Shown piece by piece: positions 7 through 23,934 of a stretch of DNA of 64,000 nucleotides (the first letter of the stretch is position 1; each line of letters opens with the position of its first letter). The position numbers were made by a program, and so were the translations under genes. Origin of the DNA: Planctomycetales bacterium (lineage in GTDB: Bacteria > Planctomycetota > Planctomycetia > Planctomycetales > Planctomycetaceae); NCBI GenBank assembly GCA_026400835.1, contig JAPLOA010000084.1, forward strand, positions 1 through 64,000. Reading direction: 5' to 3'. A model generated the notes under the pieces. It worked only from the letters and a program-made list of their open reading frames with translations, did not search any database and was not told the origin of the DNA.

Positions 7-1050
7 ATGCCACGAGTGAATCGGGGGGAGATCTTTGCGGACGATGAAATTCAGGTGTTTCATCTGGTGAATCGCTGCGTGCGTCGAACGTATTTGTGTG
101 GGCGGGATGAAGAAACGGGCCGAGATTATTCACATCGCAAGCAGTGGATTCGCGACCGGCTGGAAGTTCTGGCGGGGATTTTTGCCGTGGATGTGCTCAG
201 CTTTGCGATCATGAGTAACCACCTGCATGTGGTGGCTCGCACGCGGCCCGATCTTGTCAGAACGTGGTCGGATGAAGAGGTGGCTCTTCGGTGGTGGAAT
301 CTGTTTCCTCAGCGGCGGAGGAAGGATCGCTCTCCGGAGGAACCGACCGAATTCGAGCTGAATCAGATTCGCAATGACCTGTCAGGCCTGAAGGAAAAGC
401 GAAAGCGTCTGTCGAATGTATCCTGGTTCATGAAGTGCCTTGCTGAGCCGATTGCTCGACTGGGCAACAAGGAAGAAAAGGTGACTGGGCATTTCTGGGA
501 GGGCCGTTTCAAGGCGCAGCCGCTTCTGGATGAAACGGCGATTGCGGCCTGTATGGTTTATGTGGACCTGAATCCGATTCGGGCGGGCATCGCGAAGACT
601 CCGGAGGCCAGTGATTTCACCAGCGTGAGAGATCGCGTGTTGGACCGCCAGTTGGCTGGTGATTTATCATCGGCCGACGTTCAGGATGTCCGCATCGAGC
701 ATGGGCGGAACGCTGGCTGGTTGGCCCCTGTTCCTCTCGATCCGCCTCGGAAAAAGGTCCGGGAGAAAACCAATTCCCGGCGAGCGTCGAACAAGGGCTG
801 CCTGATGATGTCGCTCGATCAATATCTGCAATTGATGGACTGGACGGGACGTCAGTTGCGAACTGACAAGCGGGGCTCCATTCCGACGGGTCTGGACCCG
901 ATACTGGAGCGACTGCAGTGCAGTTCGGAGAGCTGGGTAGATCTGGTCAAGAATTTTCGAAAACGCTTCCGAGTCGAGATCGGACTTCCGACGACTCTGC
1001 AGTCCATCTCCTCCCGCCGCCGCTCCCATCGAATCGCCGCGCAGGAGTGA
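7..1050 (+). CDS. IS200/REP-associated tyrosine transposase-like protein (RAYT-like)
   Basis: 347 aa. The N-terminal half matches the HUH (Y1) transposase fold: a strand with FHLVNRCVRR near residues 18-27, the metal-binding HUH variant SNHLHVV with His72 and His74, a GHFWEGRFKA motif at 161-170, and VYVDLNPIRAG at 184-194, whose Tyr185 is in the usual position of this family's signature. Family members are single-strand DNA endonucleases, and RAYT-type members are linked to REP palindromes. No flanking terminal hairpins of a complete insertion sequence are visible and the left flank is cut by the window, so a domesticated single-copy RAYT is likelier than an active IS. The last 73 codons are repeated, decayed, immediately downstream. 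Confidence 0.8.
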   Translation: MPRVNRGEIFADDEIQVFHLVNRCVRRTYLCGRDEETGRDYSHRKQWIRDRLEVLAGIFAVDVLSFAIMSNHLHVVARTRPDLVRTWSDEEVALRWWNLFPQRRRKDRSPEEPTEFELNQIRNDLSGLKEKRKRLSNVSWFMKCLAEPIARLGNKEEKVTGHFWEGRFKAQPLLDETAIAACMVYVDLNPIRAGIAKTPEASDFTSVRDRVLDRQLAGDLSSADVQDVRIEHGRNAGWLAPVPLDPPRKKVREKTNSRRASNKGCLMMSLDQYLQLMDWTGRQLRTDKRGSIPTGLDPILERLQCSSESWVDLVKNFRKRFRVEIGLPTTLQSISSRRRSHRIAAQE

Positions 1051-1275
1051 TTCTGAGTCCAGGCGGTAATCCAGATTCGCAATAACAAAGTCGGCGTGAT
1101 CCCTAGTGCGTGTGCTCCGATCCTCGAACGTCTGGACTGCAGTGCCGAGACGTGGGTCGAATTCGTCAAAAACTTCCGCAAACGCTTCCGCAACGACGCT
1201 GGCCTGCCACAGAGTCGCCAAACGTTCCGCTCCACCCGCCGCGAGTCGAGGGCACGTTCAACAGCGTCATCCTGA
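1051..1275 (+). pseudogene. Decayed tandem copy of the transposase 3' end
   Basis: Read in the same frame as the transposase, this stretch repeats its C-terminal 73 codons at a constant offset of 219 bp without indels. Codons from 1117 give PILERLDCSAETWVEFVKNF, parallel to PILERLQCSSESWVDLVKNF in the intact gene (codons from 898). The following KRFRNDAGLP also corresponds to KRFRVEIGLP. The copy has no start, contains an in-frame TGA at 1054 and ends at TGA 1273. It is either a tandem partial duplication or a former longer C-terminus cut by the stop at 1048. Confidence 0.75.
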
Positions 1276-1676
1276 GAAACAGAGATCCCTCCGAATCAGC
1301 AAGGTCGATGAAACTGTCCCCTCCCTCGTTGCGTCGGTTGTCACGACCTGAGTGGCGAACATCAGCTATCTTGCCTGCGTCGGTCCGACACGCCCGAGTC
1401 GTCAAATCTGTTTTCAGTTCACGATTGAGGCCCGGTTCGGGACAGAAAGCCCTTAACCCGCAGCCTTAATGATCTCATCGAACATTCGTACCCGAATTGG
1501 AAATCAGCGGGCGAACTACTTTACGACAAACACCGTGCATCAATGATCCTCTCGTACGCGAGATGTCTCCTGTTGACTTGCGTTTGTGGGCTAAATCCGG
1601 ACACTTTCGGGAATTGTGAGGCGGTCCAGGTGCTGGTCGCCCCAGGTTCAAATTATCCGTGATCAAGAATGAGGCC
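1276..1676. other. Intergenic stretch, no gene recognised
   Basis: About 400 bases between the transposase remnant and the cyclophilin gene. I see no convincing coding frame, tRNA or terminator. A TTGACT hexamer near 1573 could be a -35 element, but no good -10 is paired with it. Confidence 0.4.
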
Positions 1677-2216
1677 ATGAGCAAGAATCGAAAAGCAGAA
1701 GTTGATGCCGCCGTGAAGGACATAGACTTCCAGAAGAACGACTATCAGATTGAACTTAACACCAATCATGGCAAAATCGTGCTGAATCTGCTGCCGGATA
1801 TCGCACCCGGGCATTGCTTGAATCTCATCGGTCTCACGAAGATCGGCTACTACAACGGAGTAATGTTCCATCGAGTCATCAGTGGCTTCATGATTCAGGG
1901 CGGATGTCCTCAGGGGACTGGTACCGGTGGCCCGGGCTACACGATCAAGGCTGAGTTCAACGCGACTCCGCACGTTGATGGTGTCCTCTCTATGGCCCGC
2001 ACCAGCGATCCAAACTCCGGCGGGTCACAGTTCTTCATCTGCCTCGGAACTCAGTCATTCCTCGACCGTCAGTACACCGCATTTGGGCGAACGGCCGATG
2101 CTGACAGCCTCGCTGTTGTCCACAAGATTGGTGCCACGAAAACAGACCGAAGCGATAAGCCTCTGGAAGCAGCAACCATTCAGTCCGCCAGCGTTCTGGT
2201 CAAGCCAAAGGCCTGA
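1677..2216 (+). CDS. Cyclophilin-type peptidyl-prolyl cis-trans isomerase
   Basis: 179 aa. PPIase that catalyses cis-trans isomerisation of Xaa-Pro bonds. Diagnostic cyclophilin motifs are present in order: VMFHRVISGFMIQGG, GTGTGGPGY, LSMAR, PNSGGSQFFI and a YTAFGR segment; the Arg of FHRV is the catalytic arginine. There is no signal peptide, so it is probably cytoplasmic. ATG 1677 is preferred because GAGG lies 3-4 bases upstream and the protein then starts with a short charged leader; GTG 1659 in the same frame is an alternative adding six residues. The gene stands alone, with no cotranscribed neighbour obvious. Confidence 0.93.
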   Translation: MSKNRKAEVDAAVKDIDFQKNDYQIELNTNHGKIVLNLLPDIAPGHCLNLIGLTKIGYYNGVMFHRVISGFMIQGGCPQGTGTGGPGYTIKAEFNATPHVDGVLSMARTSDPNSGGSQFFICLGTQSFLDRQYTAFGRTADADSLAVVHKIGATKTDRSDKPLEAATIQSASVLVKPKA

Positions 2217-2329
2217 TTCGTAAAATGGACCAGAGCCATCACGGTGTCTGAGGCCGTGATGGTTCTGGAATTTGATTTTGAACTCGCGAGGGCTCCGGCG
2301 AGGTGGAAAAAGAATCGGCAGATCGAACC

Positions 2330-2803
2330 ATGCGACGCTATTGGCTTTTCAAATCAGAACCCGATGTGTTTTCGATCCATGATCTTGCCGCAAGCAAAGG
2401 CAAACGCACATCGTGGGAGGGAGTGCGAAATTATCAGGCTCGCAATATGCTGCGGGACGACATCAAGAAGGGTGACGGAGTCCTGTTCTACCACAGCAAT
2501 GCGGACCCGATGTGCATTGCTGGCACTGCCGAAGTTGTGAAAGACGGTTACCCTGACTCCTTTGCCTGGCAGCCCGACCACAAATATTTTGACGAAGCAT
2601 CGACCGAGAGCAAACCAGTCTGGTTCATGGTTGATATCAAGCTGGCAAAGATCTTCTCCGAACCGGTCACTCGTGCAGCCCTGGGTGAAGATCCGGTGTG
2701 TAGTCAGATGATGGTCATGAAAAAGGGCAGCAGACTCTCTATTCAACCAGTCACGGAAGCGGAATGGCTGGCAGTTCACCGGCTTGCCGACGTCGTGATC
2801 TGA
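2330..2803 (+). CDS. EVE domain protein (THYN1-like)
   Basis: 157 aa. The start MRRYWLFKSEPDVFSIHDL, followed by TSWEGVRNYQARNML and KKGDGVLFYHSN, is the characteristic EVE-domain sequence, a PUA-like fold found in thymocyte nuclear protein 1 and bacterial orthologues. EVE domains bind modified bases; the cellular role of free-standing bacterial forms is not settled. ATG 2330 is chosen because it places the conserved YWLFKSEP strand at the N-terminus, as in the family; GTG 2303 would add nine unconserved residues. Confidence 0.9.
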   Translation: MRRYWLFKSEPDVFSIHDLAASKGKRTSWEGVRNYQARNMLRDDIKKGDGVLFYHSNADPMCIAGTAEVVKDGYPDSFAWQPDHKYFDEASTESKPVWFMVDIKLAKIFSEPVTRAALGEDPVCSQMMVMKKGSRLSIQPVTEAEWLAVHRLADVVI

Positions 2804-3022
2804 TCTGTGGCCGTGGTTTTTGCAGATTTCCACGGGAATCCCGTCAAAACTACTCGACCAGCGACATGTAAAACGGTCACGATGCTGCGGTCCCTGATGA
2901 GTGACTGGACAAGAGAGGTCCCAAGGTTGTCGAACGAGCCTGCCTCCGCATCCAACCTGCTGCAGGGAACGTAGCTTTATCCAGTGTCAGACGGGCCATA
3001 TTTCCTGAATCGCTAACTGCCC

Positions 3023-4279
3023 ATGAGCGGAACAGATATTACTTCCAGTTACGCTCCCCTTCGAATCGCCGCGTTCACCTTTTCTTATCTCCCGATGATG
3101 ACGGGGATTTCATCACTGGTGCATGAACGCATCGCCTGCCTGCTCAAGCGAGGCCACACCGTGCGGTTGTTTCATCCACAGGTGCCGGACGGTGATGAAA
3201 GTCACGCCTCAGGATCAACGGGGCTGGATGAACTTGCCGGATTGGGTAACTTCAGTGCGGTTTCTTTTCCAACGGTTCGCAATCCACTGCGGCGTTCTTT
3301 TCCGGAAGCTGCTTCCCATAAAGTCTGGGACGATTGCAAACTGCTGGAAGACTTTTCGCCAGACGTCATTACTGTCGACGAAGCCGCCGGGCTCTACGGA
3401 GCCGCTTCCGGATGGCTGAAAGGGTACGGCAAGCCCGTTGGAATTCGCTATGCTCAGAAGCATCAGATTCCATGTGTCAATCTTTTGCAAACTGACTGGC
3501 AGGGTTATTGCGAACACTATGTCGGAGCAACTATGTTTCGCATTGCCGTGCCCGCTGTTCGCAGAATCATGAAGCCTATTGTTACGGGTTACGATTCGAA
3601 TCTGACTCCGTCCCGCTTTCTGTCTGATCGAAATCGTGCGATCTACGGTGAGCGTGTCGAATATCTGGGCTTTCATGGCGTGGATTGCGAGCGATTCTGC
3701 CCTGGAAATACTCGTTTCAATCCGATTCCGGATGATGATTCGCCCATCATCCTGAGTGCGGGCCGCATTGCAAGAGAGAAGAGTGTTTGGCAGCTACTGA
3801 AGGCTTTTCGACAGGTGCAGTTGAAAGTGCCCAATGCCAAATTAGTTGTTCTCGGACGCGGGCCTCTGCTGAAATCGTTTCGACACAAAGCGGCAGCCTT
3901 TGGTGGCCAGGTGCTTGTTCCCGGGGCAGTCTTTGGAGATCAACTGAAGGGCTGGTACGCTCGAGCGAATGCTTATTGGACAGCCTCCACGACCGAAAAT
4001 TTCTCGGCCGGGATTATGGAAAGCCTCGCCTCCGGAACACCGGTCATTGCGGCCGCCGCAGGTGGAAACATCGAACAAGTTGTTGATGGAGTCAGTGGCT
4101 ATCTGGTGCCATCCGGGGATTATTCCGCGATGGCTCATAACACAATTTCACTCCTGAGTGACTTAGAACGACTTGAGGCAATATCCGCGGCGGCACGTGT
4201 GCGAGCTTTGGAATTGAGCCTGGAGAATTCAACCGAGCGGCTGTTGAACTATCTGCAAAAGCTCATTCACAAAAAATAG
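3023..4279 (+). CDS. Family 4 glycosyltransferase
   Basis: 418 aa, GT-B fold. The N-terminal Rossmann half begins RIAAFTFSYLPMMTGISSLV, a typical acceptor-side glycine/serine loop. The C-terminal half has LSAGRIAREKSVWQLLKAF and the donor-binding ENFSAGIMESLASGTPVIAA with the E-x7-E motif, followed by GGNIEQVVDG. It resembles bacterial GDP-mannose or UDP-sugar dependent retaining glycosyltransferases acting on lipid or polysaccharide acceptors. Substrate and linkage cannot be read from sequence. No clear Shine-Dalgarno precedes ATG 3023. There is no polysaccharide cluster immediately around it. Confidence 0.88.
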   Translation: MSGTDITSSYAPLRIAAFTFSYLPMMTGISSLVHERIACLLKRGHTVRLFHPQVPDGDESHASGSTGLDELAGLGNFSAVSFPTVRNPLRRSFPEAASHKVWDDCKLLEDFSPDVITVDEAAGLYGAASGWLKGYGKPVGIRYAQKHQIPCVNLLQTDWQGYCEHYVGATMFRIAVPAVRRIMKPIVTGYDSNLTPSRFLSDRNRAIYGERVEYLGFHGVDCERFCPGNTRFNPIPDDDSPIILSAGRIAREKSVWQLLKAFRQVQLKVPNAKLVVLGRGPLLKSFRHKAAAFGGQVLVPGAVFGDQLKGWYARANAYWTASTTENFSAGIMESLASGTPVIAAAAGGNIEQVVDGVSGYLVPSGDYSAMAHNTISLLSDLERLEAISAAARVRALELSLENSTERLLNYLQKLIHKK

Positions 4280-5485
4280 TCATTGGGGGCAGAGGACTGT
4301 GGCTCGGTGAACCCCAGCATCCATTTTTGGGCAGTGGAGTACGCTCCCCCCCGCTCTGACTTTTGGGCGAAGTTTCAGCCTTTAGGGCCGCCATTATTTG
4401 CGAGGCTGCCGTTCGTGTCTTGAGTCTGAGTCGTAATCGCCCGACGTCATGTTGCCACAATCACTTCAGGTTCATTTGAATTGCAGCCGTTTGGGCAAAA
4501 ATGTTTTCAGTAGAATCACAAAGAGACGTTGCGACGACACACTTGCGTTTCGTTCGCATCGGCCTTGGGAGGTGAGCTTGGGAGGCCGTTGAAAAAGGTG
4601 TTCGGAACTCTCCAGCGGCTCATACTCGACGTGATCCAATGCCGCCTTCAACGTGCGATACAAATTTTTTTGAACACGCGGTTAGCGACGAGTGCTTTGT
4701 CAGCCGTGAATTGAGGAGTAGTTTTTCGTAGGCCGGACCGAGCGACAGCGAGTTCCGGCAATTCGGAAGCAACCTGTCACAGGCCGGAACTCGCTCCGCT
4801 TGGTCCGGCCTACATCCATCACAGCATCGTTGACCGAGCACTGGAGGTTTTTGCCCAATGCTCTTGAGAGTGGCTCACCGGCCAGAGATCAACTCCAGAT
4901 GGGTACCTGCGCCATGCTGACGAGCCTACAAGCTGAGGTCCTTGCAGGTATCTCGAGAAGACTCCTTTCCGGAGTTCGCGTGTCCCTGAAGTTGCCGGGA
5001 ATCAATCAGTCCTGACTTGCCTCACGCGCATCATTGCTCCCTGCGCATCATGTGAGCACGGGTGAGGCGATTGACGGCAGACACGATTCTGGACAAGTTG
5101 CGTTCTTCCGATCTGATTCTGTCGAGGCGTTGCACCTGTTGATTCGTATTGAATCCGAGAAACGTCCACACTTTCAATTCGGCAGGATTTTTGGATCTAT
5201 GGGGGGACAATCCTGAACAAAAATCACGCATTACTACCTAAAATATCAGAATTACGCTGGAAATTCGCAAGAGAGTCTAAAAAAACATTAACGCGGAGAG
5301 ATGTCCACCAACGCGGAACACGAGTTGCATACGGGGTTTTGGTATTGACCGCGACCTTGTTGACCGAGTGACAGCGTTGAATTTTTACATCAGCTTCTGA
5401 CATGGTGAAACACCGCCCCGCGTAAACAGTGTCGCCGTTAATTGTTGTTTTCCTGTTAATTTGTTTCAACCAGGAGGCTGAATTC
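4280..5485. other. Long gene-free stretch with one palindromic repeat
   Basis: About 1.2 kb without a convincing gene. Short open frames occur on both strands, but none has a recognisable domain, a ribosome site and balanced composition together. It contains the REP-like inverted repeat listed separately. The last 200 bases are presumably the leader of the DUF1559 gene. Confidence 0.5.
4728..4813. repeat. REP-like imperfect inverted repeat (32/31-bp arms)
   Basis: Left arm 4728-4759 begins GTAGGCCGGACC and ends GCGAGTTCCGGC. The right arm 4782-4813 is its reverse complement, with two substitutions and one indel in the middle. The 22-base loop holds AATTCGGAAGC. The size and architecture resemble bacterial REP/BIME elements. 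Only one copy is in the window. Confidence 0.8.
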
Positions 5486-6520
5486 ATGAAAAAACTCATG
5501 AGGCCCGTGAAGCAGAGTCGCGCTGATCGGGGATTTACGTTGATCGAGTTGCTTGTCGTGATCGCGATTATTGCGATTCTCATTGCTTTGCTTTTGCCTG
5601 CAGTACAACAGGCGCGAGAGGCGGCCCGTCGTACTCAGTGCAAGAACAATCTGAAGCAGATTGCATTGGCAGCACATAACTTTGAAAGTACTTACGGAAA
5701 TCTTCCTCCAGGCTATCTAGGGCCTGATCTTCCAACGCAGGACAATTCCTTAGCCGGTTCCCCATATATTGGCCCGCTGGCTCAAATCCTTCCGTACATG
5801 GAGCAGTCTGCACTTCATCAGTCAATGAACGTCAATCAATTGAATCCCGACTTGGCGAGTGCAACTCAGCAACGTTGGTTCAACGATGCGACCACTTTGC
5901 AGGCTGCGTATGCAAAGATCCCCGGCTATGAGTGTCCGTCGGCAAATCCTTACGGGAATTCAGTGAGTGTGATCAGTCGAACGCACTGGTATTTGACAAA
6001 CCCGACAACCGGCGGCGTCACGATCCAAACTAACTCCTTCGCCAACGCTACAGCCTTACCAACCACCGCGAATCCAACTGGCACAGCGGCAGGCCTTGGT
6101 CGTACGAATTACGTCGCCGTAGCTGGGCGAATGGGCGAACTTGGCTTTGCAGCCTGGGATAACTGGAAAGGTTGCTTTTCTCGACGCAAAAAAGTGAAGT
6201 TCAGAGACATTACTGATGGTCTCTCCAACACACTACTTTTCGGAGAAGTCCTGGGGGGATTCAACGCAACGACAAAGGCTCATGAGCTCTCCTTTATTTG
6301 GATAGCATCCGGGATGCTTCCAACTGGATGGGGGACATTGGCAAATGGACCGGATGCAGGAAACGGTTTGCACATCCGCTACGCGAGCCTGCACACTGGT
6401 ATCGTGCAATTTGCCATGGCGGATGGTGCCGTTCGTCCATTGAGTGTGAACATTGACCTCGGCACCTATCGAAGCTACCTGGCAGGGGCTAGTGACGGAA
6501 ACGTAATTGGCGAATTCTAG
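5486..6520 (+). CDS. DUF1559 prepilin-like protein
   Basis: 344 aa. The N-terminus carries a type IV prepilin signature: basic leader, [20 protein letters not shown] with cleavage expected between Gly16 and Phe17 and Glu at +5, then [20 protein letters not shown]. This is the exact arrangement of the DUF1559 (SBP_bac_10-like) family, which is hugely expanded in Planctomycetes. The C-terminal [11 protein letters not shown] segment is the family's other hallmark. ATG 5486 is chosen over upstream GTG 5429 because AGGAGG sits at 5472-5477. These proteins are exported and pseudopilin-like; their function is not established. A small lipoprotein gene follows 90 bp downstream, probably cotranscribed. 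Confidence 0.93.
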
Positions 6521-22752: not shown

Positions 22753-23934
22753 TTAAGCCGCTCTGTTGCGGTAAAGACTGTGGTCAATAACCTGAGCCAT
22801 AGCTTCGGTGTCCAGGCAATATCCCAGGTGTCGATTAATCTGAGCGATCGTGGAGGCCGGCCGTGACAGCAACTCGTTGTAGCTGACGTTAATCAGCTTG
22901 AGATGTGTCTGTGATGGCAACCATGAATAGAACTGCCGAAGAACTCGTTCAAAGAGTTCCTTGATTTCTTCATCGGGGATCTCCGTCTTGATCCCATTGC
23001 GTAACAGCATGGCACGCTGCGATTGAATGATTTCGTCGATCTGTCGTCGCATGAAGACAACGCGATATTTGCGGTCCTTCGGGAGATGCTCCAACAGGTT
23101 GTAGACCATCTTCACCGAGTGACCGATGGCTCGATCAATCCAGTCACCGTAGTCTTGAATGCTCTTAACGCTTTCGAATTCGTAATAGCCGTTGGGATTG
23201 TCAGCGTCCGGTGTGCGATGTTCATCACAGAGCACCGGAATTCCGCCCACATTCAGCATCCGCATCATCAGCGATGTGCCGGACCTTGGCAGGCCTGAAA
23301 CGATGGTGATGAACCGATGACCTTCTGATTGCGTTGCTTGGCTTTCCTGTGATTCAGGCCCGAATGGGCTGACATAACCTTTGCCGGGGTCCTCAGGCCC
23401 CGGTTGGATGTTGAATGGCTTTGAAGGGCTGAAGGCCCGGCACATTGTTGCTGCATCCTGTGCCGCCCCTTCAGGGCTTTCATCCTGCACTTGGCTCAAA
23501 CCGGTGGCTGACGCCACCGGCAGAGGTTGTATCGGCCCATTCGGGCCTGAATCGCATGATGGTTCGAGATCCTCGGAGACGCATTCAAGCTGATCGTCTT
23601 CCGCATCCTCGATCGGCATCGCCTCCAACGCCTTCTTCAGCAGTGCCGTCAGTTGATTCTCTGTCAGCGCACCGGTCTTGCGGTCGATCGGTTCGCCGCC
23701 GGCGAATGCCACAAAGGTCGGCACGCCGCTGATTTGATACTGGCTGGCGAGATTCGGGTTGCGATCGATGTTGACGGAGTACACATCGGCCCAGTCACTG
23801 ACTTTGACCGACAGTTTTTCCATCACCGGCTGCATCATCTTGCACGGCGGACACCACGAAGCCCAGAAATCCACCAGCACTGGCCGTTCGGAATCCAGGA
23901 CAAGTTCTTCAAAATCAATTTCGCGAAGTTCCAT
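22753..23934 (-). CDS. Thioredoxin-sulfotransferase fusion protein
   Basis: 393 aa. Residues 1-108 are a complete thioredoxin: VLVDFWASWCPPCKMM with the redox pair Cys28/Cys31 and the cis-Pro loop ISGVPTFVAF. Residues 205-393 are a P-loop sulfotransferase-like domain: ITIVSGLPRSGTSLMM (loop 213-221), NPNGYYEFESVK, YRVVFMRRQIDEIIQSQ and a C-terminal DHSLYRNR. The linker, residues about 127-195, is encoded by a 205-bp nested palindromic repeat read in frame (see repeat). I infer an in-frame fusion across an intergenic repeat. Its neighbours are an SQD1-like enzyme and a phosphodiesterase. A link between thiol chemistry and sulfonation is speculative. Confidence 0.85.
   Translation of the reverse strand: MELREIDFEELVLDSERPVLVDFWASWCPPCKMMQPVMEKLSVKVSDWADVYSVNIDRNPNLASQYQISGVPTFVAFAGGEPIDRKTGALTENQLTALLKKALEAMPIEDAEDDQLECVSEDLEPSCDSGPNGPIQPLPVASATGLSQVQDESPEGAAQDAATMCRAFSPSKPFNIQPGPEDPGKGYVSPFGPESQESQATQSEGHRFITIVSGLPRSGTSLMMRMLNVGGIPVLCDEHRTPDADNPNGYYEFESVKSIQDYGDWIDRAIGHSVKMVYNLLEHLPKDRKYRVVFMRRQIDEIIQSQRAMLLRNGIKTEIPDEEIKELFERVLRQFYSWLPSQTHLKLINVSYNELLSRPASTIAQINRHLGYCLDTEAMAQVIDHSLYRNRAA
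23350..23554. repeat. 205-bp nested palindromic repeat inside the fusion gene
   Basis: Outer arms 23350-23379 and 23525-23554 are 30-bp inverted copies sharing GATTCAGGCCCGAATGGGC. Inside lie CCGGGG..CCCCGG (23384-23403) and CCGGTGGC..GCCACCGG (23501-23520), centred at equal distance from the element midpoint. Inside those are 23423-23442 and 23461-23480, which resemble each other inverted. The whole is one mirror-symmetric composite and could fold as a long branched hairpin. It resembles intergenic palindromic repeats of planctomycetes, but here it is translated. Confidence 0.85.

Follow-up and report, generated by a model that had tools for sequence, protein, structure and literature searches.

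The linker between the thioredoxin and sulfotransferase domains of a planctomycete protein very probably houses a copy of a dispersed family of six-hairpin palindromes, inserted into a gene that was already fused, with the encoded peptide as a tolerated passenger. The gene lies on contig JAPLOA010000084.1 of a Planctomycetales bacterium, within a 64,000-nucleotide stretch that is referred to here as the window. We propose that the element is a non-autonomous mobile palindrome (REP- or MITE-like) that would be moved or copied as a hairpin-rich unit and would settle mostly outside genes. Among copies entering genes, selection would leave those with a stop-free frame at tolerant places, such as linkers and loops. 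In the thioredoxin–sulfotransferase (Trx-ST) gene, the element arrived in a stop-free orientation and frame, which would add ~68 residues. The peptide would simply ride along, whereas the hairpin-forming nucleic acid would be the conserved part.

The uninterrupted reading frame suggests that the Trx-ST protein is made as a single chain. Within its sulfotransferase half, the Pfam model Sulfotransfer_1 matches residues 211-389 and Sulfotransfer_3 matches residues 254-372, while the 69 residues of the element have no Pfam match at E 0.001. An AlphaFold model, computed from a two-row alignment only, has a mean pLDDT of 31 and is uninformative on the linker. On the opposite strand, a 95-aa ORF (23445-23732, plus strand) covers half of the palindromic element. 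The coordinates of the gene, its domains and the hairpin blocks are collected in Table 1.

Table 1. Features of the Trx-ST gene and its palindromic element (positions in the window).
Feature	Position	Strand	Evidence
Thioredoxin-sulfotransferase protein gene, 393 aa	22753..23934	-	ORF, Pfam, 13 complete orthologues
Thioredoxin domain, residues 3-100, with WCPPC	23635..23928	-	Pfam PF00085, E 1.6e-26
Palindromic element, ~68 residues (129-196)	23347..23553	-	Inverted arms, absence from 12 of 14 genes, family alignment
Hairpin block A (outer)	23528..23551	-	Family alignment, hairpin analysis
Hairpin block B, loop codon TCA (most relatives outside genes: TGA/TAA)	23501..23523	-	
Hairpin block C	23459..23480	-	
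Hairpin block C' (mirror of C)	23423..23444	-	
Hairpin block B' (mirror of B)	23382..23404	-	
Hairpin block A' (mirror of A)	23353..23376	-	
Sulfotransferase domain, residues 211-389	22768..23304	-	Pfam PF00685 E 2.2e-5, PF13469 E 5.6e-9

The element consists of blocks in the mirror order A-B-C-C'-B'-A', each of which forms a small hairpin on its own, and a profile match spans 23347-23550. Its two 64-nt arms (23345-23408 and 23496-23559) are 81% complementary and lie 87 nt apart, giving the element terminal inverted repeats like those of MITEs. These arm positions bear out the original prediction of a 205-bp element (23350-23554) with three concentric pairs of inverted blocks around a centre at 23452, and the ORF and Pfam matches agree with its claim that the frame (22753-23934) runs through the element, supplying about 69 linker residues between the two domains. 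As RNA, the sense strand of 23340-23564 folds with a predicted energy of -118.4 kcal/mol, compared with -77.7 +/- 4.7 kcal/mol for 200 dinucleotide shuffles, none of which is as stable (z -8.7). The window has no Rfam match at the gathering threshold.

Whether the palindrome joined two genes or entered one can be read from the orthologues, which we searched for in 40 genomes chosen as relatives. Eighteen of these belong to the genus of the window genome (G000, itself included), all as draft assemblies of 112 to about 1260 contigs. Counting the window gene, the genus has 14 complete genes encoding the two domains in a single ORF. Four genomes fall outside this count: in G002 and G015 a contig end truncates the gene, and in G003 and G017 no orthologue was identified. 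Twelve of the 14 are fused without any insert (306-328 aa), and only the window gene and its counterpart in G004, 393 aa each and 87% identical as proteins, carry one. The downstream neighbour is kept at all 15 loci compared (the 13 other complete ones plus G002 and G015) and the upstream neighbour at 13, both misses being the loci cut by a contig end. Since the repeat-free genes are fused and have the same neighbours, the fusion is older than the insert. The element came into a linker that was already there, in the simplest case before G000 and G004 separated. The linkers have diverged, so a target-site duplication is not readable by eye. The idea that thioredoxin and sulfotransferase were once separate genes, fused through an intergenic palindrome, could draw on the position of the element between the two domains and on the absence of a long spanning ORF around most family copies; given the 12 fused, repeat-free genes in the same neighbourhood, it would survive only if all 12 had lost the element, and we reject it as barely credible. 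Thus, of the two origins initially put forward, the data contradict fusion of genes across an intergenic mobile palindrome and support insertion into an existing linker. The checks suggested along with them, a search for further copies and for repeat-free orthologues, turned up a repeat family and fused genes lacking the repeat, rather than orthologues sharing the linker with no repeat family behind it.

The family can be followed well beyond the window. Within the window genome, 15 matching places are listed, including the query and its own reverse strand; the remainder are partial or divergent, and the near-full-length relatives reside in other species. Seven contigs of this genome (C35, C41, C60, C73, C75, C101 and C106) have pieces of the element a few hundred bases from their ends; such repeats may cause breaks in the draft assembly, so that copies in this genome may be undercounted. 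DNA matches occur in at least 9 of the 18 genomes of the genus (E <= 0.001). For a closer comparison, 75 loci were chosen, fetched and searched with a profile built from five copies, yielding 58 near-full-length copies (>=165 model positions), or 59 with the window copy, a chosen sample that does not give the true number in the genomes. The block order A-B-C-C'-B'-A' is common to them, except that A is missing from L129, at a contig end, that parts of B and B' are gone from L156, and that L053 has a non-matching outer block A. In another locus (L176, G003:C347, 1416-2455), several half-elements stand in a row within ~1 kb, as though one half of the palindrome were able to multiply in tandem.

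By origin, 57 of the 59 aligned copies belong to the genus and the other two to G083, a member of another genus of the same family. At the peptide level, a profile search at E <= 1e-5 finds the element in 7 of 170 genomes searched across the taxonomic order, all from the genus, and a family-wide sample at E <= 0.001 finds it in 10 of 150, five of which are from other genera with weak scores (<=27 bits). A peptide scan of named genomes gives 14 loci. Three are strong and lie in MAGs labelled Planctomycetaceae (two) or Kuenenia (one), taken as G012, G014 and G004; the other 11 are weak and come from Pirellulaceae MAGs, Rhodopirellula and Stieleria. The record titled Candidatus Kuenenia stuttgartiensis (CAMAXD010000119.1, L179) is seemingly mislabelled, as G004 is placed in the genus of the window genome. 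The family is therefore concentrated in the genus, although not strictly confined to it, its members in at least one other genus being more distant.

Most of these copies lie in no long ORF. A mechanical test, which required an ORF extending at least 50 codons beyond the element at both ends, was failed by 54 of the 59 copies (not each of which has been shown to be intergenic) and passed by five: the window copy, the one in G004, two in G012:C650 and one in G014:C1. The last was discarded as a genic copy, for its 583-aa ORF has just 51 codons before the element and, by eye, a likely start with a signal-peptide-like stretch after it. The five copies that we call genic, at four sites, are those of G000 and G004, the two of G012 and one in G014:C7. 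The G014:C7 copy has 8 codons before it and 1405 after it, where a signal-like segment follows; its translation is doubtful, and the start may lie inside or after the element. Its gene corresponds to part of a longer ORF in several orthologues. In this gene family (L039, with orthologues L214-L227), several species of the genus have a single stop-to-stop ORF of ~2700-2800 aa, whereas G014 and G001 have ~1500 aa, the element of G014 being located just past the break; short orthologues such as those of G005 and G004 are near contig starts and may be cut.

The gene in G012 (L040) encodes FecR and VIT domains (Pfam) and is unrelated to the Trx-ST gene. Its two in-frame copies, together with short flanking stretches, are absent from 10 aligned homologues of about 21-32% identity. 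The first looks to be placed in a loop of an apparent VWA domain (not reported by Pfam) and the second after it. In the same ORF (1007-6397), HGGLTPNRSP follows both copies, and there are further repeat-like stretches, LTLTLTLSPESGERG and NLKSQISNYK / SNLKSEISDPP, which presumably recur elsewhere. It looks like a gene that is tolerant of many in-frame repeats.

What sets the genic copies apart is their reading frame. Exactly one of six frames is open in each, and it is the same frame in all five; some open frame exists in 30 of the 54 other copies, without a common one. The loop codon of hairpin B is TCA in four genic copies and TTA in the fifth. Among the 54 others it is TGA (26), TAA (18), CGA (2), TCA (2), TGT (1), TTA (1) or unread (4), bearing in mind that the B stem is one base longer in most G005 copies, so that their loop codon is not strictly in the same frame. 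A maximum-likelihood tree of the 59 copies separates the five genic ones from the 54 others (support 98.1/100). A plain comparison of genic and non-genic models is biased by training; it favoured the genic model at 7 of 83 places, comprising four genic copies and three partial matches (one in G005:C416 and two in G003:C347). A raw tally of 55 of 223 came from redundant, overlapping loci and is disregarded. We trust the leave-one-gene-out version, in which each genic copy scores 124-147 bits with a model of the copies from other genes, whereas 40 size-matched sets of non-genic copies from other genomes reach at most 122 bits and a model of all 54 gives 109-118 bits.

The genic group may be a lineage that dwells in genes, or else a subfamily whose members persist there only when free of stops; four sites are too few to tell these apart. 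A lineage adapted to genes would have lost the stop in loop B and would spread between coding sites as a translatable cassette, and it would account for the grouping in the tree, for the higher scores of all five copies with models from other genes and for their one shared open frame. However, simple filtering would likewise leave copies with this one frame open, 6 of the 54 others have a sense codon in the loop as well, and it is uncertain whether the G014 copy is translated. A partial copy at the end of contig G015:C821, which lies just past a stop codon of an open frame, is sister to the five (91.2/97), yet has TAA in the loop, and its inclusion lowers the support of the five-copy group to 72.9/96. 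We therefore hold adaptation to genes to be possible, though doubtful. With similar reserve, one may tentatively picture the palindrome of the genus as split into a lineage between genes and a gene-dwelling linker cassette that, without the loop stop, can enter unrelated genes in frame, its hairpins still selected.

Comparisons between copies suggest that it is mainly the nucleotides that are constrained: the hairpin DNA or RNA, not the peptide, seems to be conserved. Between the genic copies, dN/dS ranges from 0.77 to 1.47 (10 comparisons), and in the eight between-site comparisons the differences are distributed across codon positions. The two closest pairs have the fewest differences at the second codon position (3 of 20 between G000 and G004; 9 of 46 between the two G012 copies), so a weak constraint at the protein level is possible. 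The G000-G004 pair has a dN/dS of 0.07 and 0.04 in the two domains and 0.88 in the element. Nevertheless, the element differs at only 19 of 199 sites (8 of 138 in hairpin blocks and 11 of 61 in spacers), compared with 47 of 128 four-fold sites in the domains (p 5.5e-9 for the whole element; 0.011 for the spacers alone). This low divergence could also stem from recombination or a younger insertion instead of constraint. We infer that selection, not recombination, keeps the hairpins. Across the 59 copies, 89.2% of cells are paired in the local hairpins, against 84.7% after shuffling and at most 54.6% in slid controls. Their covariation is 0.124, against 0.053 for shuffled alignments (0 of 500 as high), a control that leaves relatedness uncorrected; one example is hairpin B', where 28 of 58 copies show a switch from G-C to U-A. 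Block A is paired in only 51% of cells, which we ascribe to a one-base shift of its stem between subfamilies. Compared with the local hairpins, the full-length fold-back is less well preserved, with 72.5% paired (70.5% shuffled, slid controls <=48.0%) and a covariation of 0.112 (0.084 shuffled).

Such conserved hairpins might act in the mRNA, by pausing ribosomes between the domains or stabilizing the transcript, and be kept for that purpose, in line with how much less the element than the four-fold sites differs between G000 and G004. We regard this as unlikely, because the element is lacking from 12 of the genus's 14 complete genes and the same hairpins are kept outside genes, so that the constraint may be the element's and not the gene's. 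Selection on the peptide as a functional linker is very unlikely: motifs such as LPVA, SPEG and CRAFSP do recur in unrelated proteins, and the second codon position is least different in the two closest pairs, but dN/dS among the genic copies is 0.77-1.47, and the recurring motifs follow from the conserved hairpin DNA. The preferred reading is still that of a mobile palindrome with a tolerated peptide.

For a possible source of mobility, the window genome has 19 matches to Y1_Tnp transposases (RAYTs, the movers of REPs and REPINs); no element was found in flanks of up to 1.5 kb at the 10 of these 19 loci that were searched (best score 5.8 bits). REPINs are doublets of REPs, whereas our element has three mirrored kinds of hairpin and is not such a doublet. 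It resembles REPINs and BIMEs in that hairpins of alternating orientation build a larger palindrome (PMC3116915 and PMC2817692). PMC3733652 reports REP families in Planctomycetes and describes GTAG/CGTC REPs as 20-40 bp long and tagged by GTAG or CGTC at one of their ends; these also lie inside genes, for example in Opitutus terrae (PVC superphylum), as hairpins and dimers and sometimes several per gene. By inspection, neither tetranucleotide is present in the 59-copy consensus; CGTC does stand after block A in several G005 copies, and four genic copies have it in loop B. The mitochondrial genes of Nematomorpha likewise contain long inverted repeats within their coding sequence (PMC6649704); those are perfect, while ours is an imperfect, dispersed family residing mostly outside long spanning ORFs.

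The closest likeness is to the Rickettsia palindromic elements (RPEs), many of which lie in frame within ORFs that likely encode functional proteins (Ogata et al. 2002, as cited in PMC3733652). Like these, the planctomycete element is a dispersed palindromic repeat family with in-frame insertions in unrelated genes that are absent from homologues (the Trx-ST gene and, against distant homologues, the G012 VIT/FecR gene). The likeness is one of description, and the element differs in its phylum, its 205 bp with six mirrored hairpins and its separate genic subgroup. A literature search, covering few subscription journals and so giving weak evidence, found no other planctomycete in-frame palindromes in titles and the beginnings of abstracts, and no paper with any of five hairpin B variants. 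The best reading, by analogy, would be a Rickettsia-palindrome-like insertion in another phylum.

On this reading, a palindromic repeat has been converted into protein sequence far from Rickettsia, in a bacterium with a large genome, and this has happened in two unrelated families of proteins; the repeat-free orthologues serve as before-and-after evidence for insertion. Conserved hairpins combined with a peptide dN/dS of ~1 bear on how mobile palindromes may lengthen linkers or add loops while leaving a gene unbroken, and the genus offers a natural series in which the adaptation of such elements to coding DNA can be tested.
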